64,000 nt of DNA from Cymbomonas tetramitiformis (lineage: Eukaryota > Chlorophyta > Pyramimonadophyceae > Pyramimonadales > Pyramimonadaceae). The translations under genes and the position numbers were made by a program. The DNA is taken from contig LGRX02033436.1 in assembly GCA_001247695.2 (NCBI GenBank), positions 19,031-83,030 on the forward strand. The letters are read 5' to 3'. The stretch's first letter is position 1. The number at the start of each line of letters is the position of its first letter. The notes beneath the pieces are model-generated. The model was not told the DNA's origin, searched no databases, and was given only the letters and a program-made list of their open reading frames with translations. Below are positions 2,446-26,831 of the stretch, piece after piece.

Positions 2446-2713
2446 CAAGCACAGTCAAGAAGACGTCCGGAAGATGTCAAAAAATGTCTTCCGCGTGTCT
2501 TCTGTGTGTCTTCCGCGTGTCTTCCGCGTGTCTTCCGCACCTCTTCTGGGTTCAGGAAGACATATATTTCCCGAAGGCGTCTGGAAGATGTACAGAAGGT
2601 ATCTGGGGTATCTTCCGCAAGCACAGTCAAGAAGACGTCCGGAAGATGTCGGGAGATGTCTTCCGCGTGTCTTCTGAGTGACTTCTGAACGTCTTCTGAG
2701 TGTTTGTCTTCAG

Positions 2714-3720
2714 GATGCCCTCCGCACTACCTTGGCCAAGTGTCCTTTGTATAGGAGATAGAATGGCAAGTAAACGTGCCGCGCATCTCCAAAAGGGGGA
2801 AGCGCCCCCAAAGACCAAAATGTCGTCCTTCAAACGAGCGATGCTCACTAACCCCCCCCCCGAATCCGCGGCGGAGGTCTTCCGTCAATCCAAGCCGGAG
2901 GTCTTGAAGGGGAAGATGGCAGCGGTGCACGATTGGTTGTCTACGGTGTCGCCATCCCGCGAGCTGGATCATGAGATGACGGCATGGCTCGGGGAATCCG
3001 TCTACATTCATGAGCATTCCCCTGCAACAAGGTGCTTGCTTGTCTCCATAACCCACATGCATCTATCATGCACATTTATGCAGTTTGAAATGCATACAAC
3101 CGAAGATGTGTGGAGCATCTTCTGCGCAACTTCCGGACGTCTTCCACGTGTCTTCTATGAACTCACCATCACAATGTTTTCGCAGGGCTGAAGATCACGA
3201 GGACGCGGTTCGTATTTGCGTGCCGCGTCAAAGCAACCGGCCACCTTTCGGCTTAGCCGAGCCCACTAATGTGCTTTTCTCGGTTCAAGAGTTTTTTGGC
3301 TATGTGCAAGCAATTTCAGACTTGCATGAACCGGGCTTTAAGGAGCATACGTGGGAGGACATTTTCTCCGATCCATTGGACTTGGCCGATGATCCGGGCA
3401 CGGTGCACTTTCGACAACATAAGTGGCTCCTTGAGCCTCCCATTGGCGTCAACCTCCAAGGAATGGTGTTGAAGATACGGGATGCAATCGCATCGGGCGA
3501 ACCATATCATCGTCCTCCGGAGCTTGTGAGTGATGGGGATAGGCGGATGAATCCGCAAAGGCTTTCACCTTCACCTCCGGCCCCGATGGATGAAGTTGTG
3601 GACATGACCTATACCGAAGTCCATGAGCCCGAGGACCCTCCCCCGGAGATGCCAACACGAAGGTGCGAACCGGTTGCCACGGCATGCCCGTATCTCCATG
3701 AAAGATGTATGCCTGCACGC
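2714..3720 (+). CDS. Two-exon unrecognised protein of element A
   Basis: Exon 1 runs from an acceptor at about 2713 to 3031 and exon 2 from 3186 to somewhere before 3720. The donor AG|GTGCTT and acceptor CGCAG|GG join in phase to read SPATRAEDHEDAV. Exon 1 is basic near the methionine at 2763 (MASKRAAHLQKGE). Exon 2 is proline- and acid-rich at its end (PSPPAPMDEVVDM, EDPPPEMPTR). The 154-base intron holds GAAGAC words. I recognise no domain. It may be the 3' part of an accessory gene or of the transposase itself, and any upstream exons have been lost at the palindrome. The exon 2 donor may be CGAAG|GTGCGA near 3662. Confidence 0.4.
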
Positions 3721-3727
3721 TCCATCG

Positions 3728-4285
3728 GAAGTCGTTCCGAAGACGTTCCGAGCGTCTTCTGCGCATCTTCCGGGCTCATGGACTTCGGTAAATCTAACGT
3801 AGAGCAAAATGACAATAGCAGAATCTGAAATCAAGCATTCCAAAACTGAAATCTGAAATCCACCGTAGAGCAAAATCAGCCAAAACTGAAAATCGGAAAT
3901 CTAATATGGAGCAAAATGACACATATAAAAATCTGAAATTGGTTTGTAAAATCTGAAATCAAGCATTCAAAAAACTGAAACCTGAAATCTAACGTAGAGC
4001 AAAATCAGCCAAAATTGAAATTTGGAAAATCTAACATAGAGCAAAATGACAAATGCAAAAGTCTGAAATGGAGCATTCCAAAAACTGAAAACTGACATCC
4101 AACATAGAGCCAAATTAGCCAAAATCGAAAATCGGAAATCTAACGTAGAGCAAAATGACGAATGTAAAAAATCTGAAATCAAGCATTCCAAAAACTGAAA
4201 TCAGAAAACTAACGTAGATCAAAATTAGCTGAGATTGAAATTTTGGAAATCTAACGTAGAGCAAAATGACATATGTAAAATTGCA
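3728..4285. repeat. ~105-129 bp tandem repeats inside an element A intron
   Basis: After a short GAAGAC stretch (3728-3775), AT-rich units carrying TAACGTAGAGCAAAATGAC or variants start near 3795, 3900, 4029, 4140 and 4252. A half-unit with CGTAGAGCAAAATCAGCC alternates with them. The array lies between exon 2 of the upstream gene and the transposase exon at about 4400. Confidence 0.75.
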
Positions 4286-4399
4286 CTTTCGCATTTTCCC
4301 TTCAATTTCAACAAATGCACACAATCTTGATTATTGCTAATTAATTACAAATGGTCATCACAAATCACAATGGTCAAATGGGGGCAAGGCCATAAGAAG

Positions 4400-6105
4400 A
4401 TGTTGCGTCCGAACGGCACGAACACCGGACCGAAGATGCTCAAGTGTCACGAAGGCGTTGAAAATGCTACAAGCGGGCATCATGAGCGTGCTAGCGTCTT
4501 GGGATAGAGACGAGGGCTACTCGAAAAACATGCTTGAAGACTTGATCGGGCAGTTGACGGTCATAACGAGAGAGCTCACTTCGGAGCTTGTAGACTGTAA
4601 GGTACGGAAGACATCTGGAAGACATCCCGAATACGTTCCGAGTACATTCCAAACGTCTTCCTTAATTACCTTTTATTTGGTGATTTTGCAGGATGTTCCT
4701 AAGCTTCAAAATCTGGTGGATGAGTTCTTCAAGTCACTCGAGCGCGATGGCTCACCTGACTGGCTGGTCATCAACACGCATTTGCTTTCCCACTTCCCCG
4801 ACCAACTCCTCATGTATGGTCCAATACGGGGGACATGGATGTACGTGTTCGAATCATTCAACGGGAAGATTCGAAGGTGGGTGAAGAACAATGCATATCC
4901 GGTTCAGAGTGTTATGCAAGGCTTCGGGCGGTACCGGATGGTACATGTGGTGCGAGGGTTAATCTTGGTACTTCGTCGCCGGCGGGAGGCAACCACCAAT
5001 CCCACCCGGCCACCCGTGCTCCGGTTCTTGACCACCGCACCGTTGAGGGCGCCGAACACCGTGGTTTTGGGAACACAAGGCAAGCGCCATGTACTCTCCC
5101 GCGCTGAAACGAAAGCGCTGGAGCTGTGGATGCATGGCAACGTGCCCCAACCAATACCGCAAGTTGAAGGCAAAATTCGACGACTACGTCACCTACTGCA
5201 AGAGGTAAGTAAGAAATGAAACCCATAAGGTGCCTGGAAGACGTTTCATATATCTTCTAGGCATCTTCCACACGTCTTTGGTAAATACATGTCCTGACAC
5301 TGTGCACGTATACATTCGCAGGGAAAGCCATATGGTTCGGAGACGTATTGGCGCACATGCCGGAGGGTCTCGCCTGATGGATGTGCCGCTGCATATGCAC
5401 GGTAGCGACCCCAAGGTCTGGCTGGGGAGACCATTCACGGAGAATGAAGCGGCACTCGTCGAAGGGCCTCCTCGCGTGTGTCAATCTTTCGGCTCGGTCG
5501 TGGTTCGAGGAGTTTGCTATCGCACGGCAGCTCAGGACAAGACGAAGAAAACTTGTCAACGTTACTTCCGAGCCTTTTTCTCTGGAGAAACATCAAAGGC
5601 CCGAGGAAATCGAGACTGACCGGTGCGTCCGTGCATTACGTTTTGGTGAATGTGCGCAGAATATGTACCGAATGTCTTCTGCGTGTCTTCTCGACGTCTT
5701 CGGGGATTCTTACTATAGAGTATTGTGGCTCCAACTCGCAGGTACGCCATGGTCGATAGCATCTACAAGGTCGACTTGGCCGCGAAAGAGTACATTCTTG
5801 TGAAGGGAAAGTGGTTCCCTGAATTCAACCAAGCGACGACAAAACGGTTTGCCAAGCTAAACTCGAAGTACGGGCCGGACAATACCGCAAAGGTGGTGTA
5901 CACATACGACCCGGATGATCCCGAGACACCTTGGGACACTACTGATCCATTCATCCTGGCGGCTCAAATTGAGCACCAAGTTGTAATCAAGAAACATCCT
6001 GTGATGAAGACGGCGGTGATATTTGATTTAAAGGCTGACTTTTTCGAGTGCATCGACGATGATGGTTCACGACCGAAAGGTGCAAGACGCAAGAGGCGAT
6101 CATGA
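4400..6105 (+). pseudogene. CACTA transposase C-terminal region (tnp2-like), element A
   Basis: Exons: about 4400-4601, 4692-5204, 5322-5622 and 5742-6105 (TGA). Donors (GTACGG, GTAAGT, GTGCGT) and acceptors (TTTGCAG, TTCGCAG, CTCGCAG) are good, and every intron carries GAAGAC/GTCTTC words. The second exon (THLLSHFP, GPIRGTW, ESFNGKIRRWVK, PVQSVM) aligns with the same region of the element B transposase (THILRHLP, GPAHGTW, ESFYGKCKESVK, PVASIM). The last exon (DSIYKVDL, YILVKGKWFPEF) resembles the DUF4216-type C-terminal domain of CACTA transposases, here matched by YGELLKIYSIP and FLKVRWFPL in element B. Near 4440-4465 the similarity switches frame (GPKMLKCHEG then KMLQAGIMSVLASW), implying a frameshift. 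The catalytic core is missing. Confidence 0.6.
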
Positions 6106-6332
6106 TAATACGCCGGGCATCGTACTTAGTGGTCTGTATGTTGAATAGATGCAATCGTACATGTATGTGTAGATAGACCTATCAATTAACTTAGCCGTAT
6201 ATTATGTATCATAGCAACAGAGCATGATGACAACCCTGAAGCTGTTAGGAAGATACCTGGAATGTCTTCCGCATGTCTTCCGTGCGCCTTCTGAATGTCT
6301 TCTGTGATTACGCGACTAGTGTACGTGTGGTA
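6106..6332. other. Element A 3' tail up to the LTR insertion
   Basis: Follows the transposase stop. GTCTTCC words recur at 6250-6305, then unique sequence runs to the TGAAG target site at 6333. Confidence 0.5.
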
Positions 6333-6337
6333 TGAAG

Positions 6338-6569
6338 TGCTGGACTTTAGGTTCAGGGTTATTATTATGGGCTCTGATAGCCCCTAGCCTGACCCGTCTC
6401 TGATCGGAACCGTGACTCCGCTAGTAGCTAGGATGACAGTACAGTAGTACTGTACTGTCAGTCATCACTTCGTATTATCCGGGTTTCCGAGATGCATGAT
6501 AAAAGCACTCGGCCGGACTGATTATGGGAGCTTAGCCAGTTTTACCCGAGCGGAACACCTGTTCTCGCA
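6338..6569 (+). repeat. 5' LTR
   Basis: 232 bp, TG...CA. Contains a 27-bp palindrome near 6433-6460 (TGACAGTACAGTA, centre G, TACTGTACTGTCA). Confidence 0.93.
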
Positions 6570-6962
6570 GGTTATGCGCGTCACCACTTCCCTAGTAATT
6601 CTGATGGCACAGCGCCAAGCTGTTGCCATGATTGGCTAAGTTTTGACACAGAGATGGGGTGGGCGCCCCCTTAGGCAGTAGCTTTCTCTTCGCAGTATGG
6701 CCTCCTTTTGAAGTGGAGATCAGTTTTTCAGCATTTATTCGGCAGAGTATCGTCGCTGAGTATGGTTATGTTTTACGTTCCGTTTGATCAGCGGGCAGGA
6801 CACTCCGCGTTTTGTGGGTCGCTCCCACGATTAGCCACTCGGCTCATGACCTGCTTGATTATGTTATTGTTTGCTGAGACTCCTGCAGGAATTGGCCGCT
6901 GCGGGATTATTCACTATTGTCGCACCGCTAGCCCGCAATCCCATCTCACTGTCATTTTTGAG

Positions 6963-9140
6963 ATGGAGACAACGCCAAGACCACGTACACGCGCTAGAGC
7001 GCGTAAATTAGCGACTATTTTCGATGATGTTGGGGCATTAAATTCGGCTACCCCTACAACGCCGCATTTGGATTCGGCTAACGAGTCGGCTGCGGCTGCG
7101 ACGCTCGTTCAGCGGTTGCGGAAAGATTCTTTCGATGTTCAGTGCGCGAAGACGGCAGCGACCAAAGTTTTGGGGGACAAAACAGCAAAGTTTCATGGCA
7201 GTGAATCATCGGCTTCGGACATTTTTTCACAGCTGATTTCCGAAATTCAGCAGCTCTTCACGCTGCAGTCGCAGGCAATTGCACCCCTGTTTGAGCTGAC
7301 TGACGCTGATGTTCCTGTCATGCCCACTGCCAATGAGCTGCTGTACTCTGTGCTGTTGCTGCTGACCGCGCCAGGGTCTCCTGCCCGTAATTGGGTAGAG
7401 GCTTCTGGGGCTGATGTTCCTGCTGATGGCAAACGTGCCACCCTCGAGGTGGTGCGTATGCTCGCTGATGATTCGACTCCGTTCGAGTCTCTGACTGAGC
7501 TGCTTGAAGTGAGAATCTCGGACGAGAGTGACCCTGACTCGAGCATTCGTCTTTTTAACAGTTGTCTTCGGGATGCACAGCGTCTGCAGACGCTGCCCGA
7601 AGACGCTGTTAAAAGGCAATTCCTCTCTGCCCTGTCTGGACCGGCTTACGCCACGCTGGTTGACTCGTTTGCTCGAGCTGACCAGCGTGCGGCTGTAAGT
7701 CTGCTCACCCTGCAGGCGCGCGTGCGCGAGCAGTACCGCTGCGGGCGGCTCTCGGGCAAGCGCACTGCGGCGCGCCCCATGTCCGTGGCATCTTGCACCA
7801 CTGACACTGGCCTGGCTTCGGCCATCGAGCGGCTCGGTTCTTAGTTGGTCAAGTTGCAGCGGGACGTGGATTCCCTTAAGAAGGGTGGCTCCAAGCCACC
7901 TCATGGGAAACACGCTCCGCGCGGCTTCCACCGTCCTGGAGTGCAACCGCTTGCTCATTCCGCCTCTTCGGAGGTGGCTTTTGACAAGCGGTCTGGCACC
8001 TTTGTCCCAACGTGCAGGCACGAAAAGTGCCGCGCCGTTGGGTCGAAGCATTGGCTGAGTGAGTGTCCTCACAAGGACACTCACCCAATGACCATCTCGG
8101 CATCTTACTGCCAAGCCGTCGAGTCTTATGACTCCGACGTGCTTGCCCTTCGTTTTCAGCGGTACTATGACGCTGGGGATGAGGGGTCCATTGAGCACTT
8201 GTGTGCTCTTGTGGGGCAGCCTGAAATCTGTGAGCTGTCTGCGCATTCCTTTGCTCCAGAGCCTACGGCTCTGCAGCAGTTCAAGGATGCTGCTGCCTCT
8301 GCTGAGACTGCACCTGCTGAGCATCTTTCCATTGGCCGGGTTGCATTTGCTGAGGTCAGCGGTCCGCTTGCTGGTGGTGTCGCTGAGCCGGCTGCCAGCA
8401 AGCAGCTGCTGCCGAAGGCCTCTGCGCCCGTGCATGGTAAGCCGATTGACTTGCATGGGGTCAGCAGTGCCGCCTTTGTGCCGCCGTCTGCCTCTTTGGC
8501 TCTCGGCCCGATGGCTTCTGCTGACAGTTCATTCAAAACATTCAACACTATACACCCTGACTGGTTTGACATTGACCCTGAGCCTGTTGAGGTGTGTGAT
8601 TCCGATGACGACGGGGAGGGCTCCAACTACCCTCCCGGTGTCTGTCTGACTGAGATTGAGGGGGGTGCACCGCCGACGGCTGCGGCATTTCGGCGGTTCG
8701 GCGTTCCCAGAGGCTCCAGGCCATTTGGCATCAGTGAATTTACTCTCAGTCTCTTCATGGTGGCTACATTTCTCTTCAGTGCTACGGCGATGCCGACACT
8801 CGTGGTCAGCGGTGGTGTCAGGGGCCTGGTTGAGCCCGGAGCCACTTACGACCACGGTGCGGTTCATCTCGGTGGTGCATTGCTGGATTCTCCTTGCCCG
8901 ACTGTGGTTACCGCTGGTTCGTCATTGCCGCCGCGGGATGTGGCACAACTCTTTTCTCAATCGACCTCAGCGGCTTTGGAATCTGATGGTTTTGCCGCTC
9001 TACTTTGGGATCCGCCTGACCCACTTGGGTCTGGTGGTGTCAGTTCTTACAAATTCTCTTCTCAATTGACTTCGGATGTTTTTCTTGCTTGGAATCCGTC
9101 TGCTGAACTCGGCTATGCCGACCAGCTTTACAGTGGCTGA
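6963..9140 (+). CDS. Gag-like polyprotein interrupted by an in-frame amber codon
   Basis: One reading frame runs from the ATG at 6963 to the stop at 9138-9140, broken only by TAG at 7842-7844 (context GGT TCT TAG TTG GTC). The first part (293 codons) is helical and gag-like (LFNSCLRDAQ, RQFLSALSGPAYATLV). The second (431 codons) has a Cys/His cluster resembling a modified zinc knuckle (CRHEKCRAVG, WLSECPH), an acidic stretch and a hydrophobic segment near 8740-8790 (LSLFMVATFLFSATAMP). The order gag, Cys/His motif, acidic linker, hydrophobic segment is the same as in the N-terminal 900 residues of the copia polyprotein at 47329-55158, which suggests that an element of that type could supply enzymes. 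The amber could be a readthrough signal or a simple nonsense mutation. Confidence 0.7.
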
Positions 9141-9320
9141 GTCTGCTTGTTTCAAACCCTGGAGGTGTGATTAGCCTTAGCCGCAGTGGTGGGCTGTGCC
9201 GGGACAAGTCCCCGGGCACCCAGCTAGAAGTATATCTGTTTCCAGTGAATGCTGTTTGTTATCTGCTTACTTAGCTCCGCTTGCCTAGCCCTATTAGCTA
9301 CGTCACAGCTCCGGGTGGTG

Positions 9321-9552
9321 TGCTGGACTTTAGGTTCAGGGTTATTATTATGGGCTCTGATAGCCCCTAGCCTGACCCGTCTCTGATCGGAACCGTGACT
9401 CCGCTAGTAGCTAGGATGACAGTACAGTAGTACTGTACTGTCAGTCATCACTTCGTATTATCCGGGTTTCCGAGATGCATGATAAAAGCACTCGGCCGGA
9501 CTGATTATGGGAGCTTAGCCAGTTTTACCCGAGCGGAACACCTGTTCTCGCA
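9321..9552 (+). repeat. 3' LTR
   Basis: 232-bp partner of 6338-6569, with the same TG...CA ends and internal palindrome. It is followed directly by the TGAAG target duplication at 9553-9557. Confidence 0.93.
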
Positions 9553-9599
9553 TGAAGTAGCTATGTGGCCAAATTGCATAATCATCACATATGTGTCGA

Positions 9600-9870
9600 C
9601 AACACATGTCAGAATGTATTCTGGCCCAGAAGACATTCGGAACATCTTCCGGGTATCTCCCGGGAAGACTACCCTTTGCATGTCTTCCGGGAAGATGTCT
9701 TCCGAGATCCGGAAGACATTCCGCACATCTTCGGCACGTCTTCCCCGAAGAGTGTCTTCTGGTTTCCAGAAGACGTTCCCGTCAGAAGACGTCTTCTGGA
9801 AACCAGAAGACATCATTTCTACGAAGACGTCTATAAGACGTTCAGAAGACGTCTTCTAGACGTCTTCTGA
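9600..9870. repeat. GAAGAC word array, distal end of element A
   Basis: Dense alternating GAAGAC/GTCTTC words resume after the LTR element. Fold-back pairs such as TCTGGTTTCCAGAAGACG (about 9764-9778) and its near-reverse complement about 9800-9812 are present. The array stops sharply near 9870, where the 185-bp satellite begins. Confidence 0.8.
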
Positions 9871-9884
9871 TTTTCCCAGAATGT

Positions 9885-10875
9885 AGGGGAAACAGCCCGA
9901 AAACAGCGGTTTTCGGGCCATATTTCTCAAAAAATGAAAAAAAAAATCAAGAACCATATTTTGTGTGACACTTGGATATGTTGTGGTGGGGTAAGGCAAC
10001 CTTCAAATCGTCGCAAAGATGACATTAAACCGTAGGCGTAAGGCTATTTGAGCCGAAATAGGTCTAAAATGCGGAAAACAGCCCGAAAACAGCGGTTTCG
10101 GGCCATATTTCTCAAAAAATGAAAACAATTTCAAGAACCATATTTTGTGTGACACTTGGATATGTTGTGGTGGGATGAGACAACCTTCAAAACTTCGCAA
10201 ACATAACATTAAACCGTAGGCGTAAGGCTATTTGAGCCAAAATAGGCCTAAAATGCGGAAAACAGCCCGAAAACAGCGGTTTTCGGGCCATATTTCTCAA
10301 AAAATGAAAATAATTTCAAGAACCATATTTTGTGTGACACTTGGATATGTTGTAATGGGGTAAGGCAACCTTCAAAACGTCGCAAACATGACATTAAACC
10401 GTAGGCGTAAGGCTATTTGAGCCGAAATATGCCTAAAATGCAGAAAACAGCCCGAAAACAGCGGTTTTCGGGCCATATTTCTCAAAAAATAAAAATAATT
10501 TCAAGAACCAACTTTTGTGTGACACTTGGATATGTTCTAATGGGGTAAGGCAACCTTCAAAACTTCGCAAACATGACATTAAACCGTAGGCGTTAGGCTA
10601 TTTGAGCCGAAATATGCCTAAAATTCAGAAAACAGCCCGAAAACAGCGGTTTTCGGGCCACATTTCTCAAAAAATAAAAATAATTTCAAGAACCAACTTT
10701 TGTGTGACACTTGGATATGTTCTAATGGGGTAAGGCGACCTTCAAAACTTCGCAAACATGACATTAAACCGTAGGCGTTAGGCTATTTGAGCCAAAATAG
10801 GCCTAAAATGCAGAAAACAGCCCGAAAACAGCGGTTTTCGGGCCATATTTCTCACCAAAAAAAAAATTCAAAAAC
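9885..10875. repeat. 185-bp satellite, more than five units
   Basis: AACAGCCCGAAAACAGCGG starts at 9891, 10077, 10261, 10446, 10631 and 10816, a period of 184-186 bp. Units differ by scattered substitutions. Each contains a strong hairpin, CCCGAAAAC-AGC-GGTTTTCGGG, and the conserved phrases TGTGTGACACTTGGATATGTT and AACCGTAGGCGTAAGGC. No coding potential. Confidence 0.93.
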
Positions 10876-11192
10876 CAACTTTTTTCGTTGTCTTAGAATT
10901 GATCCCTTAATTTCTAGTGACTTTCAAAAGTTCCTATCGTTGAATTATGCATGTGACCACTTTGTGACGGCATAGGGAAATGCGACGGCTCTGCTTTGCG
11001 TTTCCCCCCCTTGCCCTCCACCCAGTTCTCGTCCAGTGTGCTGGCATCTTTATCTGTGAATTTGTATACACAACGAAAGACCGGAATGCAGTGAGAACGT
11101 GGGCCGAAGACAGCGAAGTTCAAACGCAAGAAAACACAACGAAGAACGAACGAACGAAGAAGCACAACGGGCGAAATGTGTAACACACGCAC

Positions 11193-11574
11193 TTCCAGAT
11201 GCACCTGAAGCACTTTGTTGTTCTGAAGGAGTCTTCCGTTTTTTGTTGGCCCTATTATTCTGCGCATCAACCCGGGATCGTTCTTCCTTGTCCTTGCGGA
11301 AAGCTGCTATCTCCTGTTCGTGTCCGGCGAGATTCTCGATGGGCTCCCATGTGTCCTCGTTATCAGTGAAACCCTCCCAACCTATGAGCCACACAGGTTT
11401 ACCTTTCCTTACTGCTTCCGCGTTTATCTCACGGACGGAGAAGACAGTGTCGTCGTTGCCCGTGAGGTCGTAAGGGTTTTTCTGAGTTCGTTTCACAGGG
11501 CCTTGACCCTGCGCGTGCAGAACCACGTCGGCGTCACTGGTCTTTCTGCGCTTGGCACCTTTGCCACGAGGCAT
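11193..11574 (-). CDS. Chromodomain protein, first exon or short protein
   Basis: Starting at ATG 11574 the protein opens with a basic stretch (MPRGKGAKRRK), likely nuclear. A chromodomain follows at about residues 43-95 (VFSVREINAE, KPVWLIGWEGF, EDTWEPIENL). The aromatic residues of the methyl-lysine cage are largely present (F near the start, W in LIGWEGF, W in DTWEP). A lysine/arginine-rich tail (NKKRKTPSE) follows. A donor-like GGAA|GTGCGT at 11193 suggests an intron. Without it the frame stays open to 11050 with low-complexity residues. It could be a host HP1/Polycomb-type gene or a chromointegrase remnant, and no integrase is visible nearby. Confidence 0.6.
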
Positions 11575-11915
11575 CTTTACTCAACGAATTTCGAAACAGT
11601 CGGTACGTAGATTAGCGATGAATGGGATTAAAATGCTCACAGATTATATTTTTTATACGAATTCCTCGCTCGCCCCTACTTTGCTATTCCGAAGTCTGCA
11701 CCAATAATATGAAGTTTTGGAATCATCTTGGGATCGATGAATAACGGTTGTTAATTGGTTGGATCGATGTGGTTTAGAATGGTACCTATCGTGATAGCTC
11801 AAGATCACGTTGATCCGTCAAAGTGGTTATCGTACTTATCGATTACTGCCATTCACATGAGGTGTCGATTAATCAAATAACAAAATCGCGTCGAACCTAT
11901 CGAGTGACGAGGACA
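11575..11915. other. Region upstream of the chromodomain gene
   Basis: Unique sequence 5' of the minus-strand ATG. It should contain that gene's promoter, but no clear element is recognised. Confidence 0.4.
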
Positions 11916-11917
11916 AT

Positions 11918-12107
11918 TCCGGTGAACCTGTCGAGCGACGACGACAGTTTTGTGAACCTGTCGAGCGACAACGACAATTTTGCGAACCTGTCGAACGACA
12001 ACGACAGTTTTGCGAACTTATCGAAAGATAACGATATTTACGATAAGTCATTTGAACATATCGAACGACGACGATAACTCCGATTAATCGATTAATCGGA
12101 GTTATCG
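11918..12107. repeat. 30-bp tandem repeats ending in a 36-bp perfect palindrome
   Basis: Four units of GTGAACCTGTCGAGCGACGA with a variable tail (period 30) run from about 11922 to 12040. They are followed by 12072-12107, a perfect 36-base palindrome (left half CGATAACTCCGATTAATC). The unit is in-frame as NLSSDDDSF-like text, but the ORF is short and unsupported. The TCGA/ATCGAT-rich style recalls the arrays at 34.4-34.6 and 45.9 kb. Confidence 0.85.
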
Positions 12108-12872
12108 AACTATCGATACCGGGCCTTGGCCGGCATGCGCACAGCCGCTTATGGTGAATCGCTTTAGGGTATTGTCAAGACATTTGCCCACGCGATCGGT
12201 GCACAAATGCCACGGGACAATTTGCATACGTTGGGTACATCGTGATGTGCCCAAGGCCGGGTACGTAGTGGACATGGGTGGCAAGTTAGCCACCCAGGCT
12301 GCCGCACAACATATACCCTGCACTCCGGCAAACGGCGGTCGGGAAAATCTCAACCGAATACCCGCTGATGGATATTCCACAGGAAACTGTGAGGGTGATG
12401 CCGTCCACACTCGGTGATGAGGAAGGTCATGAGCGCAAGCCATAATAATGTATTACCTGTGCGTGGAACGCTCACCAAAAACACACGAAGAAAACTGGTC
12501 AGCAATCACACAGATAGTGGACTGAAACGGCCTGCACTGTTGACACAAGCCAAAATCCAGACAACCAAATTATCACAAGCGCAAAGGGCTCTTTATCCTC
12601 CTCTGTCACTGAACACGTTTTATGGGTTTTATGTGTAGCCAAGAGATAATATGCAAGCCTACAACCACCCGTGGGCACTGCATGGGTGATGAGTTGCTGC
12701 TGGCAAAATTGCCAATTTCCCTGTCGAAACACGTAAAAATAAGCAACACTTGGAATGCTCAGTTGATGTTATAAAAATCACTGAAAAGCACCCGTGTCGC
12801 AGAAACCTATCCGAATTATGAATGCATGTTAATTCACTGCACGTGTGGGGCGTATCAACCTCTCGTCTGTCG
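12108..12872. other. No gene recognised
   Basis: Two overlapping ORFs on opposite strands (12151-12417 + and 12102-12443 -) have no recognisable motifs. No RNA gene or repeat is evident. Confidence 0.4.
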
Positions 12873-12946
12873 AGGTTCTCCGCGCTCAGGAGCATATCGA
12901 AGGTTCTCCGCGCTCAGGAGCATATCGAGGTTCTCCGCGCTCAGGA
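12873..12946. repeat. 27-28 bp direct repeat, three copies
   Basis: AGGTTCTCCGCGCTCAGGAG starts at 12873, 12901 and 12928, followed by CATATCG in the first two copies. Confidence 0.9.
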
Positions 12947-13604
12947 CCCACGAAGTACGCCATAAAAACATCGCTACAAGTCGCGAACACGTCCATAAAT
13001 AGGATCAGTGGCCGCTAAGCTTTCCATGCGACGCTGTTCCAACTCATATCACCACAGGAACCCGTCATCACACCCCAGCGCAGTTCTACACACATGGTAG
13101 GTATATTTGTGATGTCCGTGTTAAAAACCGATTTTCGTTGCGACATTTAAATGGGAAAACCAGCCCAGCGCGCGATGAATGAGAAATCCGAACGTTGAAC
13201 TTTTGCATACGAAACAAAAGTGCAAGTTTTGCATATTTCAAACTTGAAAAAGTATTAGAGAAGTGAATTAAAAAGAAATCCACGTATGGCCCTGTCTTAG
13301 TGTATGTTTTCATGTGTTTTTTTGTGTAGTCACGTTAAGCATCAATGGAACACTGGAACTAAAAAGGAAGCAGAATATTTTACGGTAACAAGGTGGCGCC
13401 GCAAGGTTTAACATATTTTGAGTAAAACTATTCAAGATTCAACACGCAAGATGAAAAATTCTTGCGATGGTCATGCTCCAGAGCTTCGGGATGGGTGAAT
13501 TTATCAATTTCGGCCGCGTGAAGTGGCTTATGGTTTGAAGCGCTTGTCCAGCGGCATGCCCGTGAGCAACGAAGAATAGTGAAAATACTGTGAATGTCTA
13601 CTGT
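12947..13604. other. No gene recognised
   Basis: Mixed unique sequence with AT-rich parts near 13100-13460. No domain, RNA or repeat seen. Confidence 0.4.
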
Positions 13605-13605
13605 T

Positions 13606-13991
13606 CAGAAGTTACAAATACTGTTAGGAACCAAAAACTGCAAGCCACCACACGCGCAGGAACGATGCACAAGACTAATTACAACACGCGACCGGATAAA
13701 TGTACTCAGGACTTGAGCGTGTAAACCTAAGAGATATGCCCCGGAGCTTCCCTGCTGCCATGGCGTAGGTTTTACATCCGAACCACAGCCTGGGCATACA
13801 GTGCAGCTGAAGCGGCTGCCCGACTCCCCCTGAAAGGAAGCAAGCTGATGCAGTTCGTCCATCATCAAGGCCGCATCGAGGGCTGCGCCCGTGGTCTGTT
13901 GTTTAATAGCTACGATTAATGCGACGCGCTTTTGTACCTCGTCTCCCCCCGCAGCACGTTGCCTCGCTGGTACCAGACTGGGCTGCCCCAC
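13606..13991 (-). pseudogene. Exon(s) of the coiled-coil gene split by element B (distal part)
   Basis: On the minus strand a coding-like stretch reads DEVQKRVALIVAIKQQ and ALMMDELHQLASFQ, preceded by an acceptor-like CTGTCAG near 13991. It lies 45 bases from the left end of element B. The matching proximal exons of the same strand lie just beyond the right end of element B (27026 onward), where an exon closes with a good donor (GCG|GTAAGC). I infer that element B occupies the intron between them. The true 3' limit of this exon is not clear, and the part after about 13800 (CTVCPGCGSDVK) may be intronic. Confidence 0.4.
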
Positions 13992-14037
13992 TGACAGGCA
14001 CTGCCTTTGCCGAGCGTCCGTTGCAGCAGGCAGTGCT

Positions 14038-14080
14038 CCCTACAGATCTGCAACCCTTGGGAAAGCTTTCCATAGGCATG
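14038..14080 (+). repeat. Element B left terminal inverted repeat
   Basis: 43 bp, exact reverse complement of 26789-26831. It contains AAAGCTTTCCATAGG, the first copy of the element's word. The terminal bases are CCCTA, not the classic CACTA. Confidence 0.95.
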
Positions 14081-15200
14081 CCATCCCTGTGCCCTCCCTA
14101 TGCCCGCCCTTGGGAACGCTCGGGAAAATCCGGAAATATTTTCCAAAGGCTTGGAAAGTTTTCCATAGGGTATTTCCATAGGGATACCCCCTTTTGGAGT
14201 TTCCACAGGGTTTCTATAGGGCTGTATGCCTATGGAAAAGGACGTTCCATAGGCATGGAAGGCCGTATAATCACCCTATGGAAAAGTAAACATTTCCATA
14301 GGACGACTATAGGCATAACCAGGACTATGGAAAACCCTATGGAAAATGTAAACCCTTCCATAGGGCGGCTATAGGCATAGGGGGCCGATGGAAAGCCCTA
14401 TGGAAAATATAACTTTCCCATACGCTTTCCATAGGCATGTCCAAGGGCGGGCGTAGGGCGGGCGTAAGGATAGCGCACCTATGGAAAATTAGCGTATACT
14501 ATGAGTTTTCCACAAGATCTTCCATAAGGCGGGCATAGCGATAGTACACCTATGGAAATGTACAATTCGCCCTGCGTATTCTCGGGAATAAAGTCGTAAT
14601 TCCATAGGGCCTTCCATAGGGATGCCATAGGTATGGTAGGCCTATGGAAACGTATAATCCACTCTGCGTATTCTCGGGAATATCAACGTAATTCCATAGG
14701 GCCTTCCATAGGGTCCCCATAGGGATAGTATACCTATGGAAATATACAATTCATTCTGCGTATTCTCGGTCAATAAAGACGTAATTCCATAGGGGTTTCC
14801 ATAGGGTTAGCTATAGGGATAACACAGGGTGAGCATGCCGTAGGTATACTCCTGATACAGGTGGCAAAGTCTATACCTATAGTATCCATATGGAATACGT
14901 TTCCACACGTATACCGTACGTATGGAATTGACGTTCCATAGGTATAGCCAGCCTATGGAATGAGCTTTCCCAGGGGTGAGCCACCCAGTGGAAAGGTCTT
15001 CCGTAGGTATATCATCCGTATGGAAACATGTTTCCCAAGGGATACCATACCTGTGAAAGGGTTTCCATAGGTATAACCATTCAGGTTTCATAGGGTGAGC
15101 ATAGGGTGATGATTCATGATATATCCAGGCTTTCCATAGGGCTTTTACTACATATATACATATTAATATACAGAATAATTCCATCTATGAAATGAACAAG
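14081..15200. repeat. Left subterminal array of TTCCATAGG words
   Basis: TTCCATAGG/CCTATGGAA occurs every 15-40 bases in both orientations, decaying to variants such as TTCCATACG and CCGTATGGAA toward the transposase 3' end. Two ~85-100 bp blocks ending TCTGCGTATTCTCGG repeat near 14570, 14665 and 14755. In CACTA elements such as maize En/Spm, subterminal word arrays bind an accessory transposon protein; a similar role here is inferred. Confidence 0.8.
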
Positions 15201-18200
15201 TTATTCGTCATGTAAGTCGCCCACAAAATCTACATGCCTATCTAGTATGAGCATCATCTTGTCTTTATCATATCTCCATGGTGGATCATTGAAACCGAGT
15301 TTGTGCTCGCCGAGATAATATACCAACCTATTTGCATCGGGTCGTCCAGCTGGAATTCTCTTGGTCGTGATGAACCGGTCAAAGTTCCATGGAATGGGTA
15401 CAATGCACACCAAGCACTCAATCTCAAATGCTTGGATGAAAACCTCGGAAAGGTCCCATGGCAAGTCCGACCTCAACATCATATTGTTCGCCACGGTATC
15501 TTGAAATGCTGCCTTCAATGGAAACCATCTTACTTTGAGGAAAACCAATTGTTTCCTGCCAATCGGGATGCTATAAATTTTCAGAAGCTCGCCGTACCTG
15601 CAACACATACTTTCCAAAGGGTGAGCATAGGGTGGGCACGGGGTGGACATAGGGCGGCTATAGGGCGGACACAGAGTGGGAAAGCTTAACTCGTAATCAT
15701 AGGGAGGGTGTAGGGTGGTCGTAGGGTGGGCACAGGGTGAGCATACGCATGATCTAGGATATATGTTACGGTATAGGGATGTTGTAGGGCGAACACAGGG
15801 TAGGCATAGGGCCAATATAGGGCGAACATAGGGTGGGCATCGGATGAACGACCTGTCTTCATGGGCATTCAATCCATTTACGGGGTATCAAAGATTGCCT
15901 TTATGTATCGTTGACAGGTGGTGAGGTGGCGGTCGGCGGATCGCGTACGAAAAGTGTCTCGTCCGACTTTCACGTGCTGACTCTTCATCACACCGTCCAT
16001 GTAGACATAACAACGCTCCTTGGTACTCAAAGGACGACATTCCCTCGTCAACCGGTTCAACCGCCATGTCTCCAGATCTTGGATGACGGGTCGTGGCATG
16101 ATCCGCCGTTCTCTCAAACTCAATCGCTTCCATTCAGCGAGTTTGGTGTCAAAGTCGTTTTGCAGGAGCTGGGCCCATGGGAAATTCGTGCGCATATACT
16201 TCCGTATACCTTTTATGTCACCTGTGGGTGATCAATGGGTGGGCATAAGATGGTTACGAATTTCAAAGGGTGGGCATAGGGTAGGCATAGGGTGAGCACA
16301 GGGATGGAATATTTCTTTTCAGCTCCAAGGGTGGGCATAGGGCGGGCATATGGCGGGAAAGATTTCCATTGGGTGGGCACAGGGCGGACATCTACTGCAA
16401 AGGCATCTAAGGCACTGCGTACCTTCATCCAAGGTTATCGGTGTTTGCTTGCCAATCACCTCCACTCGTCGCTTTTGTGGCCCAGTGTATGGTGCAACCT
16501 TCTCATTAGATATTGAAGCATATATGCCACGGACTAGCATCAGCTGTTTTTCTAGCATCTGACCTGCGACATACATAAAACATAAACAAACGTACAGTGC
16601 AGCCAGACGTTTCCATACCTATGTTCTCCCTATGGAAGGAGCTTTCCATAGGCACGGTATACGTACGGAACCGATACATAGTAAAGGCATAAGGTAAACA
16701 TAGGGTGGGCATAAGGTGGGCATAGGGCGGGAAACTTTGAGATTCCCATTCCCTATGGTGATCACAGGGATAGCATAGGGCGGACGTAGGGTGAACATAG
16801 GGTGAGCCTAGGTATACATACCGTTCATGATGCTGGCTACTGGCTGCGATCGAGTTTTGACTGACTCCTTGCATTTCCCATAGAATGACTCCCACGGAAA
16901 TAACCATGTTCCATGCGCAGGTCCTGTCAGTTCGATATGCCGAGGCAAATGTCGCAAAATATGCGTAGTTATATTCCAATCTTCAGGTGAAAACTCCTTC
17001 TCCCATCGGTCCATTAGAGCTTCAACCCGTTTATGCAGACGGTCCTCGGAGATGATGTGGTTTGAGACTATCTCACGCACCACTACGACGAACTCCCCAA
17101 CAAAGGACGAGTATTTCGGATGAGGCAAATCTCCCAATGCGTCTGGCCAAGCTGCGATTGCGCTCATGAAGCCGCAAGTTATGAAGACAATCCCCACGGC
17201 GGCCTTCAGTTTTCTTGGCTCTCCTGTGCTCGCGCTGAACTCCATGCCCTTAGTTACCACGTTGCCCCAATTCCGATCGACTTTTGATTTCTTGTACCAC
17301 TTAATCGCAATAGAACGAATGTCCTCATCCAGACCCCATGGTACAGCGAGTTCTGCAAAAACAGAAAAGAACAGCAGTCACTGTCATGCATTATTTGACA
17401 ATCGCCAGGTTCCAAGGGTGGGTATAGGGTGGCTATAGGTCGGGTGCAGGGTGGGCATAGGGATGGAATATTTCTCTGCAGTTCCAAGGGTGAGTATAGG
17501 GTGGGCATATGGTGGGCACAGGGTGAGCACAGGGATGGAATGCGTTTCCCCAGTTCCAAGGGTGGGTATAGGGAGGGCATAGGGCGAGCACAGGGATGGA
17601 ATGAAATCCCGAGATTGTTACATACCAGCAAAATGTTCTTCCAAGGTTTTCTCCACCTCGTTCTCGTCCACAGGTTCAGGTAGCCACTCCGGGTGCACAT
17701 GGTGATTTTCAGCATATCTAAGGCATTTAATATTCCAGTTGCACTGAAAAATAGCACATGTCATCCTATATTCCAAGTTATGAAGTTCGTGCATGATATC
17801 CGGGAAGTAGTCCTTTGTCACGGAAAAGTGTGGCAACAAAGAAAGTGCACACGGCCCTTTGATGCCCGTTCTACTATAAATCTCTCGAAGCTGAGCAGCA
17901 GTGTACAACCCAGAATCTGCGCAACTTGCATTTCTGGCCTGCAGCAATCGTACGTCCTCATCGGTGCGGAGAGGTGCAGAACCTGTGAGGACAGTTGTCA
18001 CATTCGTCATCGCATTCGTTTTCATAGGGTGGGCATAGGGCGATCACAGGGCTAGCATAGGGCGGCCATAGGGCGAGCATAGGGTGGGAAACCTGAATTG
18101 GTTATCTCAGGTACGGTATAGGGATGCTATAGCGGTGTCACAGGGCGGGCATAGGGTGGGCATAGGGTGGGAATAAGCTGGACTACCTTTGAAAATTGTT

Positions 18201-21200
18201 TTATTCAAACAGCTTGTTCCCCAGGTCTCGCCGGTAATGTTGCAGAACATGCAGGCTTTAGAAGCGGAATTTCCTCCCACTCGATTGGCAATTTCCGTTA
18301 TGCCCCCCGTGCCATAGTCAGCAACAACACACGTGAGCATGCATCGTAACTGGAAGATTTCCTTTTTTCTTGAATCAAACGCTCGGACACCAACATTCCA
18401 CATGTCGAGCAACTCGTCCACCAAGAACTTGTAGTAAATCTGAGCATTACTCGGTTTATCCTCGATTATTCCGTATACCAATAGAAACTCGTACTTGGCT
18501 CGATACTCAGCAGGCAGATTTAAGATTTGGAACGTTATTGGGGTGATTGAGGACGTGACCGCCGTGGAATCGTTATGAGGATTCACTCCATCGGCACACA
18601 TGAATAAGGAGATGTTCCGTGGCTCCGTAAAGAAGCCCGGCTGCTCGACATACACCTTATTTCTCCAGAAGGTCGACTCTGCGATTGAAACCGAGCAACG
18701 AAACTTATCATTTAAGGTGAGGAACACAATTACACTTTCTGGAATAATAAATGGATTTTGGGCATAGGATAAGCATAGGGTGGTCATAGGGTGGGCATAG
18801 GGCGAACATAGGGTGGGCATAGGGTCAACATACAGTAATCACTCAGTAATAAGAAAACCCGCCAATAAGAAAGTAGCCAGCTTTTTTGATTTCTTCACAA
18901 TATTTAACACACAACACTCCATATTTAAGATCTCTATATAAATAAGAAACTTGCTAGGCTGACCTAAAATTCCTGTTTTCTTAAAATCGAGTGTTTACTG
19001 TAGGATGCAAGGCAATTGTGAATTGGGCATAGGGTGAGCATAGGGTGGACATAGGGTGATCATAGGGATGTTATAGCGTGGACATAGGGTGATCATAGGG
19101 ATGTTATAGGGTGGGCATAGGGTGAGCATGTGGGAGGGATACACTTACGATGAAACGTAGTCACAACCGGCAGATCGTCGTTCTCCGCGGGTGTAGTTAT
19201 CTTCCATGATACCAAGAGCTCGGCCATCTCTGGTATCAAATATAGCATCGGCAGGAGTTCGTCCAAGCGCCAAAACCTAAATACCTTGTACGGCTTTCCC
19301 GGAATAAGCCGTCCGTTACGTCGAGAGCTGGGGTGACACCGAAGTTTGTGGCAATGGAGGCACTGGGTAAGGTCGTCATGCCGGCCCGGAGTGAAGATCA
19401 TGCATTCATTCCTGCAAACGTCGGCGGTATGGTACGGCAGGGCAAAATCCTTCCACATAGACAAAGCTTGTTTGAAGGAGGTCGGGAAACCATTTCGTCT
19501 CTGATTGCCGATGATGTCAACGTTGCCAATCACCGTTTGCCGCATGAGATTGAAGATTTGATCAAACATGGATTGGGTAGCATTGTGCTCGGATTTCGTT
19601 TCCAGCAGATCAACGACAAGACGATGCATTGTTGAAACCTTCTCGGCATAGACGTGATCAACGACCTGTGAAATCACGAGAGGCATCCCCAACTTTACAG
19701 GAACTGCAAAATAAAAAAAAGGCATTTCCCTCCGCATGTCCACCCTATGCCCGTCCTATGCCCACCCTATGCCGACCCTATGGAAACATCCAATGCTTTC
19801 CATAGGCATGCCTACCCAGTGAACCACCTATACCCGCCCTTGGGAATGCTCAGGCCCACCCTATGGAAACATTCCATGTTTTCCCAACCTATGCCCGCCC
19901 AATGCTCGCCCTATGCCCACCCACTGGAAACGTCCAATGCTTTCCATAGGCATACTTACCCAGCGCTCTACCTATACCCGCCTCTGGGAATGCCTGTTCC
20001 CACCCTATGGAAACGTTCAACGATTTCCCAACCTATGCCCACCTGTTGGCATACGTACGCCCACCCTTGGGAAATACAGAAAGAGGGGTACCTCATGGTT
20101 ATCCATATCCTCATCGTTGGCAGCAGGAATTAGGAGACGGGCACAATGTTCTTCCAGCTTTCTCAAATGATCCTGGAGAATTTCGTCCGCTTCTGCATTG
20201 GCATCTTCCATGTCATCATCACCTCCAAGGGAACCACCATCACCACCATTACGGTGGTAAACGATATTTGACACGAAGTGGGAACTGATTCCGCGCGATC
20301 GAGATGTCATCAGACCTGAGACAGGTCGTCATCGTCATTTCGCCGGATCCGAGGTGCCACCGCTGCGAGGTGCACATGGTAAAGCTGCGAACGGAAGGTC
20401 AAAGGCAAAGGGAAAGGCAAAGGGTTTAAGATTTAGCGGCAGTCGGAATAGTTTTCAGAAGCATATGGAAAGTATTCTAGTGCTTCTGAAAACTATTCCT
20501 ACTTCTTCTATATCCTAAACCCTTTGACTTTCCTTTTACTGCTGCACGCGACCGGCAAGCATCTTTGAAACTTCCGAGTTTCAAAGATGCGTTTTGTATT
20601 TTGGGTGCACCCTAAAATTACAAAACAGCCGAGCGCTTCCCGTTTGTGCGGGATATTCACATGTATCCCATGAAGTATTTCATATGAGTTAACACACATG
20701 CACACGCAGGGGAAACCCTCGGCTGCTTGGCATCTTTGGGTTTGGGTTCGAACCAAAACTCGAACCCAAAACATCTGCCTTAGAAATAAATTGCGCGTTT
20801 CGCGCACAAGTAACTTGAAGCCTTGAGCTTCAAGTAACTTAAAGATATGTATCTTGGCAGCATTTGTGCCAAGCTTCGTGCTCTAGGACGCACGGGAAGC
20901 CCTCGGCTGTTTGGCATCTTTGAGTTTGGGTTCGAACCCAAACCCAAAACATCTGCCTTAGAAACAAATTGCGCGTTTCGCGCACAAGTAACTTGAAGCC
21001 TTGAGCTTCAGGTAACTTAAAGATATGTACCTTGGCAGTATTTGTGCCAAGTTTCGTGCTCTAGGACGCACGGGAAGCCCTCGGCTGTTTGGCATCTTTG
21101 GGTTTGGGTGTCACGTTCGAACCCAAACCCAAAACATCTGCCTTAGAAATAAATTGCGCGTTTCGCGCACAAGTAACTTGAAGCCTTGAGCTTCAGGTAA

Positions 21201-22201
21201 CTTAAAGATATGTATCTTGGCAGTATTTGTGCCAAGTTTCGTGCGCTAGGACGCACGGGAAGCCCTCGGCTGTTTGGCATCTTTGGGTTTGGGTACGTTC
21301 GAACCCAAACCCAAAGGCAAAGGCATAGGACAGTTTCGTAGATTCTGTCCCGATGCCTTCGCAACCTCGCATGCTAACTCATATTATATTGAATATTCAA
21401 CATTCAAGCGTTGGATACCCCACGCCAACGGGAAGCGCTCGGCTGATTTGTTATTTGGGTATGCGCACCCAAATGACCAAAAACGCATCTTTGAAACTCG
21501 TTAGTTTCAAAGATGCGTGGCCGATGCCTTCGTGCTTATGTGTATATTTCATATGAAATATGCCATGGAATAAATGTGAATATCCCGCACAAACGGGAAG
21601 CGCTCGGCTGTTTTGTAATTTTAGGGTGCACCCAAAATACAAAACGCATCTTTGAAACTCGGAAGTTTCAAAGATGCTTGCCGGTCGCGTGCAGCAGTAA
21701 AAGGCAAGGCAAAGGGTTTAGGATATAGAAGAAGTAGGAATAGTTTTCAGAAGCACTAGAATACTTTCCATATGCTTCTGAAAACTATTCCTACTGCCGC
21801 TAAATCTTAAACCCTTTGCCTTCCCCTTTGCCTTTGACCTTCCGTTCGCAGCTTTACCGTGTGCACCTCGCAGCGGTGGCATGGCACCTCGGATCCGGCG
21901 AAATGACGATGACGACCTGTCTCAGGTCTGATGACATCTCGATCGCGCGGAATCAGTTCCCACTTCGTGTCAAATATCGTTTACCATTACGGTCACCCCC
22001 GTCATCACTTGAAGTATCGTCTTCACTACTACTTTCCCCCATGTATACCGCTCCTTGCCATCTCTTGTATAGCTTCGTATGTCGTTGTATCGTTCGAAGA
22101 GGTTTTTCAACTTGTAGTCGGCACACGGTGCAAGGACATGGTGGCATGTCGACCCCGTGGTTGTTTAATACTGGCCCACAACACACCATCCATACCAGCA
22201 C
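15201..22201 (-). CDS. CACTA (tnp2-type) transposase, nine mapped exons, disrupted
   Basis: Exons from 5' to 3' (minus): 22201-21987 (start 22201 or 22147), [insertion], 20254-20092, about 19703-19149, 18678-18187, 17982-17626, 17352-16822, 16563-16423, 16221-15882, 15597-15201 (TAA). Every junction from 19149 onward preserves phase. Domains: an N-terminal C-x-C-x2-C cluster (MPPCPCTVCRLQ) with IQRHTKLYKRW, typical of tnp2; the transposase core (MCADGVNPHNDSTAV, ITFQILNLPAEYR, SKACMFCNITGE, GIKGPCALSLLPHF, DIMHELHNLEY); the region HILRHLP, GPAHGTWLFPWESFYGK; and a DUF4216-like C-terminus (YGELLKIYSIP, FLKVRWFPL). All seven mapped introns contain GGGTGGGCATAGGG-like words. The join 20092/19703 is out of phase, so a small exon or another acceptor (TAAAG|TTG at 19692) is needed. 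The insertion at 20255-21986 breaks the coding sequence. Confidence 0.82.
20255..21986. mobile_element. Mutator-like palindromic element inserted in the transposase exon
   Basis: The termini TGGTAAACGATATTTGACAC (left) and its reverse complement (right) open inverted arms about 550-600 bp long. The arms are flanked by a direct repeat ACCATTACGG (20245-20254 and 21983-21992). Because part of it overlaps the terminal repeat, the target duplication is between 6 bp (TTACGG) and 10 bp. Long terminal inverted repeats and a 9-10 bp duplication are typical of Mutator-like elements. No transposase is encoded, so it is non-autonomous. Removing the element with one duplication copy restores the open frame (SSDDGGDRN followed by GGDGGSLGG), proof that it landed in an exon. 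The cargo is three ~180-bp units made of consecutive short palindromes. Confidence 0.85.
20780..21300. repeat. Three ~178-185 bp hairpin-chain units
   Basis: GCGCGTTTCGCGCACAAGTA starts at 20793, 20971 and 21156. Each unit is a string of palindromes: TTGCGCGTTTCGCGCA, AAGTAACTTGAAGC...GCTTCAAGTAACTT, AGATATGTATCT, CTTGGCAG...TGCCAAG, CGTGC...GCACG, GGGTTTGGG...CCCAAACCC. The arms of the host element hold more palindromes of the same style (GCATCTTTGAAAC/GTTTCAAAGATGC; GGAATAGTTTTCAGAAGC and its complement). Confidence 0.88.
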
Positions 22202-23587
22202 GCATGACTACTTGGAACCGTTGCTTCCTTTTTAACTTTTCATTTGCTAGGCATAGGGTGATCATGAGGTGGTCATAGGGTGGGCGTAGGGTGGGCATAG
22301 GCATGGAAACAATACGATGTGTTCCATAGGGCGGTCCGCCCAATGACATCCCTATGGAAGGTGTTCAATACCTTCCATACCATGAACGTAGGGTGGACAT
22401 AGGGTGGACATACGTTAGGAATGCTGTATTCTGGTTCCATAGGGATGCCCACCCTATACAACCTATGGGAAAATAACTTGAATTTTCCATAGGGATATTG
22501 GGTTGATATTCTATGAACGGTCGAGGTGTTAACCCTATAATAGTGGCGTCCGTAGGGCTGGAAATAATTACACAGGGATGGAAAAACCCTATGTAAAACC
22601 TATGGGAACGCATTTCCATTGGCTTTCCATAGGGCAAAAACCTTTCCATAGGGCACTTTTAAATCCCCTATCTCAAAATCGTATGGAATGGCTCTGGAAA
22701 ATTTGCCACAGGCCCCAATGGAAATCGTTTCCACAGGGTGATCATAGGTTGGCTCACCCCATTTTCGGGATTCCATAGGTAATTTATAGGGATGGAATCA
22801 AAAAAATGAAAAATAGGGCAGGGTAAAACAGGCCCTTTTTGGACTCTACAACAGCAACACGCCGCACTTGGAAAATGCCTATGGAAAATGCAGAATTACA
22901 CTGTTAAGGAATGCCACAGAGATCATCCCTATGATAGTGGCGTCCATACCTGTGGAATGGCCTGGAAACAGGTTAAAAAACATCACCAATGTACCCTATG
23001 GAAAATCCGGAGCCTGTGGAAAAAGTGGTGTGCCCTATGGGAAATCCAGAGCCTATCCCTATGGAAACCCCTATGGAAGACCCCCTACCGCCGCCAAAAA
23101 CCCCCCAAATAAAATGAGCCTGTTCGATCACCCCCAAGAAAACAAACCATTTGTTCACTGACGAGGGGGGCAAAAAAACAAAATTGCGGCCTGTATGCGC
23201 AATTTTGGCTATTAGAGATTTTATTTCTGGAACTTCAAAAAAAATCGGGAAGAACCTGATTTCAAACGAAAATCGAATCGCATTGGGTCCGACAGCGACG
23301 ACGCGCGCAGATTCCACGCATGACATCGAATTATGAATTCTCAACGGCAATCTCAGACTGGATATGCCATACGTTGACCACAGGGATGGAAATCGTAATA
23401 CAGGTATGCCCAGGCCGGGACATCCTAATGGAAATCGTGCCACGACGGCGATCGATGGGAGTGTGCAAATAATCGCATGGAAAACCGTACGGAAAGCTAA
23501 TTAGACCCATAAAACCCCAGGAAAAACCCCAGGTCCCAGCACACGCAGTTGTTTCCCAGTCACCTTCGTTAGTTCTTTACAATCAAA
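22202..23587. promoter_or_regulatory. Divergent intergenic region of element B
   Basis: About 1.4 kb separates the transposase start (minus) from the accessory gene start (plus, 23588), so both promoters should be here. CCATAGGG/CCTATGGAA words are frequent from 22250 to 23070 and thin out toward 23588. No TATA box could be assigned. Confidence 0.5.
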
Positions 23588-26788: not shown

Positions 26789-26831
26789 CATGCCTATGGA
26801 AAGCTTTCCCAAGGGTTGCAGATCTGTAGGG
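26789..26831 (-). repeat. Element B right terminal inverted repeat
   Basis: 43 bp, exact reverse complement of 14038-14080. The target duplication GCT follows at 26832-26834. Confidence 0.95.

Follow-up and report, generated by a model that had tools for sequence, protein, structure and literature searches.

The DNA analyzed here, referred to as the window, is a 64,000-nucleotide stretch from the green alga Cymbomonas tetramitiformis (contig LGRX02033436.1, positions 19,031 to 83,030), and it contains two transposons, designated A and B. Each repeats a short word of its own through its subterminal arms and its introns. These private words had been described in an earlier interpretation made from the letters alone (the sequence-only reading), and counts by compartment together with shuffled controls bear the description out. 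What that reading missed is that A and B, whose words are unrelated, repeat them at the same 11-bp step in both arms and introns. By their transposase domains, A and B are Tnp2-type (CACTA-superfamily) transposons with inverted ends and 3-bp target duplications. Their termini begin with CCCTACA rather than a literal CACTA, and because the ends are variant, membership rests on the transposase and the target duplication. Family-specific subterminal repeats are present in both.

Element B occupies positions 14038 to 26831, a larger span than it had been given previously. It is bounded by identical 43-bp terminal inverted repeats (14038 to 14080, forward, and 26789 to 26831, reverse) and flanked by the target duplication GCT (14035 to 14037 and 26832 to 26834). 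Inside the repeats lie a left arm (14081 to 15200) and a right arm (25397 to 26788), both assessed by word counts and by self-match at a lag of 11 bases (lag 11). The transposase gene (15201 to 20310) is on the reverse strand; in its first model it has eight exons, GT-AG introns, and an open frame of 1,017 amino acids, with Pfam matches to Transposase_21 (4.1e-21) and DUF4218 (1.7e-10). Its seven introns, on the same strand, are at 19666 to 20091, 18679 to 19148, 17983 to 18186, 17353 to 17625, 16564 to 16821, 16222 to 16422, and 15598 to 15881 (introns 1 to 7, respectively), and all were entered in the lag-11 test. Intron 1 contains two 144-bp copies, and 63 nt of it are 83% identical to the part of the arm adjoining the terminal repeat. 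Introns 4 and 6 have an 89-bp piece in common (81 to 84% identity). The first model, which is the one used in the tests, ends intron 2 at 18739; if the in-frame acceptor at 18679 is used instead, the protein is 20 amino acids shorter. We think that 18679 is the better model, with a closer fit to family A, because B then resumes where A does. Intron 2 also carries a 168-bp insertion (18833 to 19000) that resembles a miniature inverted-repeat transposable element, with ends read by eye as CAGTAAWCACTC beside TA; some B copies have it and many are without it.

A central palindrome (20255 to 21986) has inverted arms of 333 nt (97%) and 105 nt (100%) and is nearly word-free. It also includes a second copy of the beginning of the transposase coding exon and is possibly a two-way promoter. 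Between the palindrome and the second gene of B is an internal word-rich block (22230 to 23100), included in the word counts and the lag-11 analysis. Gene 2 (23588 to 25396, forward) is open over three exons and encodes 491 amino acids rich in lysine and acidic residues. It matched no Pfam family above that family's cut-off, and the structure predicted for its exon 1 from the single sequence was of too low a quality for use (mean pLDDT, 46.5). It may encode a site-binding protein.

Element A, also larger than previously stated, extends from 25 bases outside the window, on its left, to position 9888. The ends of the element begin CCCTACATTCTGGG, and it is flanked by the target duplication GAA/GAA. 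The left subterminal arm (1 to 470 within the window) is dense with GAAGAY/RTCTTC words at 11-bp steps. Another block rich in words, ahead of the gene (2040 to 2762), has 21 matches to GAAGAC/GTCTTC in 723 nt, with the lag-11 signal in 2380 to 2762. The right subterminal arm and right inverted end occupy 9553 to 9888, followed by GAA. The A gene (2763 to 6108, forward) comprises the first exons, then DUF4218 and the exons after it; the Transposase_21 part is missing. Its introns are A1 (3032 to 3185), A2 (from 3662, with a rearranged 3' part), A3 (4602 to 4691), A4 (about 5205 to 5321), and A5 (about 5623 to 5741).

How closely do the words follow the compartments of each element? In B, the 2,056 nt of transposase introns contain 49 matches to CATAGG/CCTATG (23.8 per kb) and the 2,598 nt of arms contain 54 (20.8 per kb), while the 3,054 nt of transposase exons contain none. 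The intron density compares with 0.32 per kb (12 in 37,001 nt) in other window DNA (27,000 to 64,000), the kind of excess over surrounding DNA on which the sequence-only reading had staked its claim. In A, GAAGAC/GTCTTC is found 9 times in the 482 nt of the four short introns (18.7 per kb), twice in the 779 nt of the long one (2.6 per kb), 3 times in 2,085 nt of exons (1.4 per kb), and 19 times in the same 37,001 nt of other DNA (0.5 per kb). As that reading had also claimed, every bounded intron carries its element's word: [CT]ATAGG words are in 7/7 B transposase introns and GAAGAY/RTCTTC words in 5/5 A introns. The B word is absent from A introns, and the A word occurs once in B introns. Overall, no transposase intron examined lacks the word of its own family (10 introns come from A-type loci, 7 from B, and 3 from C, a third family described below). 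The arms are filled with words in both orientations. In 6/7 B introns, the transcript strand is the pyrimidine-rich one (mostly CCTATR); in intron 1, the words run against the direction that prevails in the other six.

The 11-bp step follows the same compartments. Self-match at lag 11 is raised in the arms and introns of both A and B; exons, the B palindrome, and the remaining window DNA show no such rise. Against dinucleotide shuffles (1,000 for each piece, giving a floor of 0.001 for P), it was in excess in 12/12 transposase introns (P = 0.001 to 0.006) and significant in 0/16 exons (smallest P = 0.089). For A2, the test was run on 3662 to 4440 and again on the first 129 bases alone; for B intron 2, it used the first model, and among the exons of gene 2 it excluded the last, of 60 nt. 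All stretches of the 64-kb window above the chosen lag-11 contrast overlap A or B. The shuffles and the rest of the window rule out chance or simple repeats as the source of the words.

Within A, the repeats take on a more elaborate form. A cassette of 55 bp, built of five units (two GGAAG and then three GTCTTC) in 11-bp register, is found on the forward strand in A1 (3101 to 3155), A2 (3727 to 3781), A3 (4606 to 4660), A4 (5225 to 5279), and A5 (5647 to 5701) and, in the same layout, 3' of the gene (6248 to 6302). In 11 noncoding pieces of the family (10 introns and one 3' piece, drawn from the window and from loci L034 and L053, with A2 represented by its 5' part), 21 to 27 of 28 core letters match, and mononucleotide shuffles (500 each) reach 20 at most; the pattern was chosen after the runs had been seen, and these scores are descriptive rather than an independent test. 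Scoring of orientation ruled out a single direction for all cassettes, with eight forward (the pyrimidine-rich strand being the transcript), two reverse, and one tie. The flanks of the cassettes differ between introns, and the letters of the spacers vary.

Which came first, the introns or the words? The exons of an A-type locus that has the catalytic exon (on C17352; four joined, with no stops) were aligned to B. A intron 2 and B intron 3 fall in one column, both in phase 1. A intron 1 and B intron 2 also coincide in phase 1 if acceptor 18679 is used rather than 18739. A intron 3 and B intron 4, again both in phase 1, are about a dozen columns apart in a weakly aligned stretch, while B intron 5 and A3 of the window are without a partner in the other element. 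A3 does have a counterpart in family C, whose second intron is at the identical column and in the identical phase (phase 0). The compared A and B positions each hold the element's own word. Because position and phase match yet the words differ, the alignments indicate that the shared introns predate their words. The sequence-only reading had suggested that repeat expansion created the introns, and where introns can be compared this finds no support. Its statement that A and B share no noncoding sequence was nearly right, the exceptions noticed being the CCCTACA termini, the target duplications of 3 bp, and the step of 11 bp.

Are these features peculiar to the two elements of the window? The genome assembly (851.7 Mb in 25,745 contigs) was searched with PF02992; the best 150 of 1,984 candidates were scored, and 30 loci (21 B-like and 9 A-like) were examined. 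The B-like loci span the first four or five introns, whole or partial, and their aligned pieces are about 97 to 100% identical. Copies whose transposase introns lack words had been named as a finding that would speak against the private vocabularies; none was found among 21 B-type and 16 A-type loci, and all introns read carry the family's own word. The A-type loci with the catalytic exon have the same cassettes in intron 1 (16/16), intron 2 (16/16, one of them interrupted), and intron 3 (15/15 read). Among the 21 B-like loci, intron indels of at least 4 bp measure 11, 11, 11, 9, and 7 bp; two of the three 11-bp indels are ten bases apart in one array and may be one event. Exon indels number two, of 1 bp each. 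Substitutions per site are 0.0047 in exons and 0.0178, 0.0023, 0.0071, 0.0104, and 0.0068 in introns 1 to 5; introns 1, 3, 4, and 5 therefore diverge faster than exons and intron 2 slower. In the left arm of A, aligned across seven copies, five of six indels are exactly 11 bp and the sixth is 34 bp.

Comparison with other copies also clarifies the state of A. The A gene of the window matches DUF4218 (1.6e-6) and shows no Transposase_21 match in Pfam, and a tblastn search with B against the window's A matched the later part alone. A-type loci with the catalytic domain match it at about 97%, to the right of the missing part (C17352) and to the left of it (C164). On these comparisons, the copy of A in the window is a derivative that has been rearranged internally, lacks the catalytic domain, and is split by a long terminal repeat (LTR) element. 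Tandem repeats of about 110 bp (3779 to 4280) lie at the internal rearrangement. The LTR element (6337 to 9552) has identical 233-bp repeats (6337 to 6569 and 9320 to 9552) and two long open frames, and it is absent from six other A copies examined. Because its coding parts differ in length from those of other copies at several places, the A gene of the window is possibly no longer intact. A 601-base piece of A has 40 genome matches at 99 to 100%, the window's own included, among the best 40 of 617 candidates, and 6/6 further A copies have perfect 3-bp target duplications. The window's A was inserted at 185-bp tandem repeats (9881 to 10950), and similar sequence lies on its left side, at the end of L022. 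Beyond these repeats, a reverse-strand open frame (11050 to 11580) encodes a chromodomain (Pfam Chromo, 1.1e-9). Scans of the window for tRNA and Rfam families gave no matches.

Family C was recovered through DUF4218 alone, unlike the A-like and B-like loci, both of which were found with PF02992. Of 2,080 DUF4218 candidates, the best 150 were scored and three were read; these (L062, L063, and L064), at first taken for three separate size classes, turned out to be one family, L063 being placed by eye. Over the DUF4218 region, C is 43% identical to B and 37% identical to A, and by their domains the three families are related Tnp2-type (CACTA-superfamily) transposons. The word of C is CGGAC/GTCCG, with 3, 3, and 5 matches in the three introns of L062 (the first represented by its 3' part) and none in 676 nt of two L062 exons. 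It had been proposed to test whether further families each have one word shared by arms and introns; C supplies the third word in the introns read, its arms being outside the sequence seen. Some other candidates came to nothing. A third word suspected in L059 proved to be an unrelated insertion with repeated GTGGGTATACCCAC palindromes (L059, 210 to 860) within an A-family exon. A viral contig, L001, matched the B word pattern and was considered as a related element. It has 11-bp repeats of its own (2501 to 3000, 4501 to 5000, and 5501 to 6000, with CATAGGGTGTC in the first block) and, by eye, phage-like open frames, and as far as seen it has no relation to the transposons. A search of viral contigs for close relatives of the B transposase found none. 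The PF13963 profile gave no genome match, but neither did its control.

What might such arrays do? We lean slightly toward the view that the words are site arrays for an element-specific DNA-binding protein, the 11-bp pitch being close to one turn of DNA. The support for this comes from the density by compartment, the lag-11 signal, the gain and loss of 11-bp units, the A cassettes, the private words (that of C included), and the shared intron positions. The words would be docking sites for a protein encoded by the element, perhaps the gene 2 product of B or the transposase itself, sitting in phase along much of the element. Arrays may have been copied and expanded within old introns, leaving the splice signals free, and replaced in concert with the arms when the specificity of the binder changed. 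More tentatively, the Tnp2 elements of this genome could be running mutually exclusive address codes, with one word per family at an 11-bp pitch in arms, spacers, and introns. The introns would then be landing pads for the family's own protein, and the pitch would be passed on by descent, whereas a change of binder would bring in a new word over the entire element. The coevolution of word and binder suggested by the sequence-only reading gains indirect support from the three families with three words, the single step of A and B, and the shared positions that differ in content by family.

Known systems offer two models for the role of such a protein. In Arabidopsis, according to the part of the report available, VANC21 sits on short motifs in the introns, intergenic regions, and terminal regions of VANDAL21 (PMC5735166), and the targets of VANC6 carry different motifs (PMC10398659, in excerpt). 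The earlier assertion that such words are known only from subterminal positions is therefore incomplete, although VANDAL elements belong to another superfamily. The likeliest role for the arrays would be to protect the entire element from silencing by the host, which is what VANC does in the case of VANDAL elements. Assembly of the transposition complex and the telling apart of families, as with TnpA sites, would come next; the same excerpt (PMC10398659) notes a correlation between demethylation and the activation of Spm by its TnpA. The arrays of A, B, and C resemble VANC/VANDAL in the family-private short motif, in noncoding tandem arrays that include introns, and in rapid motif change, as far as these partial sources describe them (PMC5735166, PMC10398659). 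They differ in that VANDAL elements have a Mutator-like transposase (VANA), whereas here the transposase is of the Tnp2 type, A and B share an 11-bp step, and shared intron positions hold different contents. Pfam scans, the sole search made, identified no VANC homologue. The arrays may thus work like those of VANC/VANDAL, but the elements are not members of that group. With En/Spm and its TnpA, they have in common the Tnp2-type transposase, the 3-bp target duplication, a family-specific motif in both arms, and, in B, a second gene. Soybean CACTA motifs differ between families and are described as subterminal in the portion of that study at hand (PMC2613891), while here the words are also in introns and internal noncoding DNA. 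A survey of CACTA introns treats intron loss and gain and, in its available portion, mentions no words in introns (PMC4158355). Among the top-ranked open-licence literature, there was no report of CACTA words in introns or of CACTA antisilencing.

Several observations weigh against a protein-binding role throughout the elements. The words do not fill all noncoding DNA of B: the palindrome has one word in 1,680 nt, and neither intron of gene 2 is significant at lag 11 (P = 0.16 and 0.29). Arms and introns of B also use different dialects, with the same core in different flanks (TTCCATAGG in arms versus TGGGCATAGGGTGGG in introns). Conservation of the word cores among B copies is weak, with 10/276 segregating sites in cores versus 38/516 in nearby spacers (P = 0.04, uncorrected) and P = 0.18 against all other intron sites (60/1,017). 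No counterpart of B gene 2 was found in the A loci examined, none of the catalytic-domain A-type loci having been read end to end. In C, two of the three introns give a significant lag-11 signal (P = 0.007, 0.027, and 0.75), one exon reaches P = 0.049, and the family is known here from introns and exons, without its arms.

Could the arrays have arisen without any function? The main rival to a binding protein is neutral homogenization, in which arm repeats expand by slippage and pieces of them are copied into introns by conversion or template switching. Introns would tolerate them where exons do not, and 11 bp would be no more than the unit length of the arms. The gain and loss of 11-bp units seen directly between copies (3/5 of the larger B intron indels), the piece common to B introns 4 and 6, the arm-like piece of intron 1, the faster divergence of most B introns, and the weak core conservation are all as this account would have it. 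It does not readily explain why two divergent families with unrelated words keep the same 11-bp step, why A cassettes retain about five units and their layout despite differing flanks and varying spacers, or why the words are missing from no transposase intron of A or B and present in 3/3 C introns read. We consider it rather unlikely.

A role at the level of RNA, such as the marking of element RNA that had been suggested earlier, appears less probable again. Here, a splicing factor or a protein of the element would recognize the pyrimidine-rich strand of the words in the pre-mRNA. UCUUC resembles the site of the polypyrimidine tract-binding protein, and the bias of transcript strands in the B introns and A cassettes fits such a role. 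The same words in both orientations in the arms and the reversed B intron 1 do not, and the avoidance of stray AG acceptors could also account for the bias. An origin like that of introners, in which the present repeats made the introns by insertion or by the splicing out of expanded repeats, we regard as very improbable. Introners resemble these arrays in placing similar sequence in many introns, as the A cassettes do, and they are mainly found in fast-evolving lineages such as green algae, according to an excerpted source (PMC9860276). The comparable introns, however, are older than their contents: one A/B position matches in phase despite different contents, as do a second if the alternative acceptor is used and one A/C position. 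Furthermore, the introns with cassettes have unrelated flanks, and other window DNA has no 11-bp arrays above the contrast. For comparable introns this origin was rejected; it could still hold only for those without a shared position, B intron 5 among them.

If a binding protein is indeed what the words serve, private motif arrays like those of VANC would extend from the Mutator-like elements of a flowering plant to the CACTA superfamily in another genome, and a function could be proposed for the content of transposon introns. With some intron positions shared and their words different, these elements would show, in a natural experiment, how selfish DNA alters the code by which it is recognized throughout its copies and compartments, and the many near-identical copies in the genome make the question testable.

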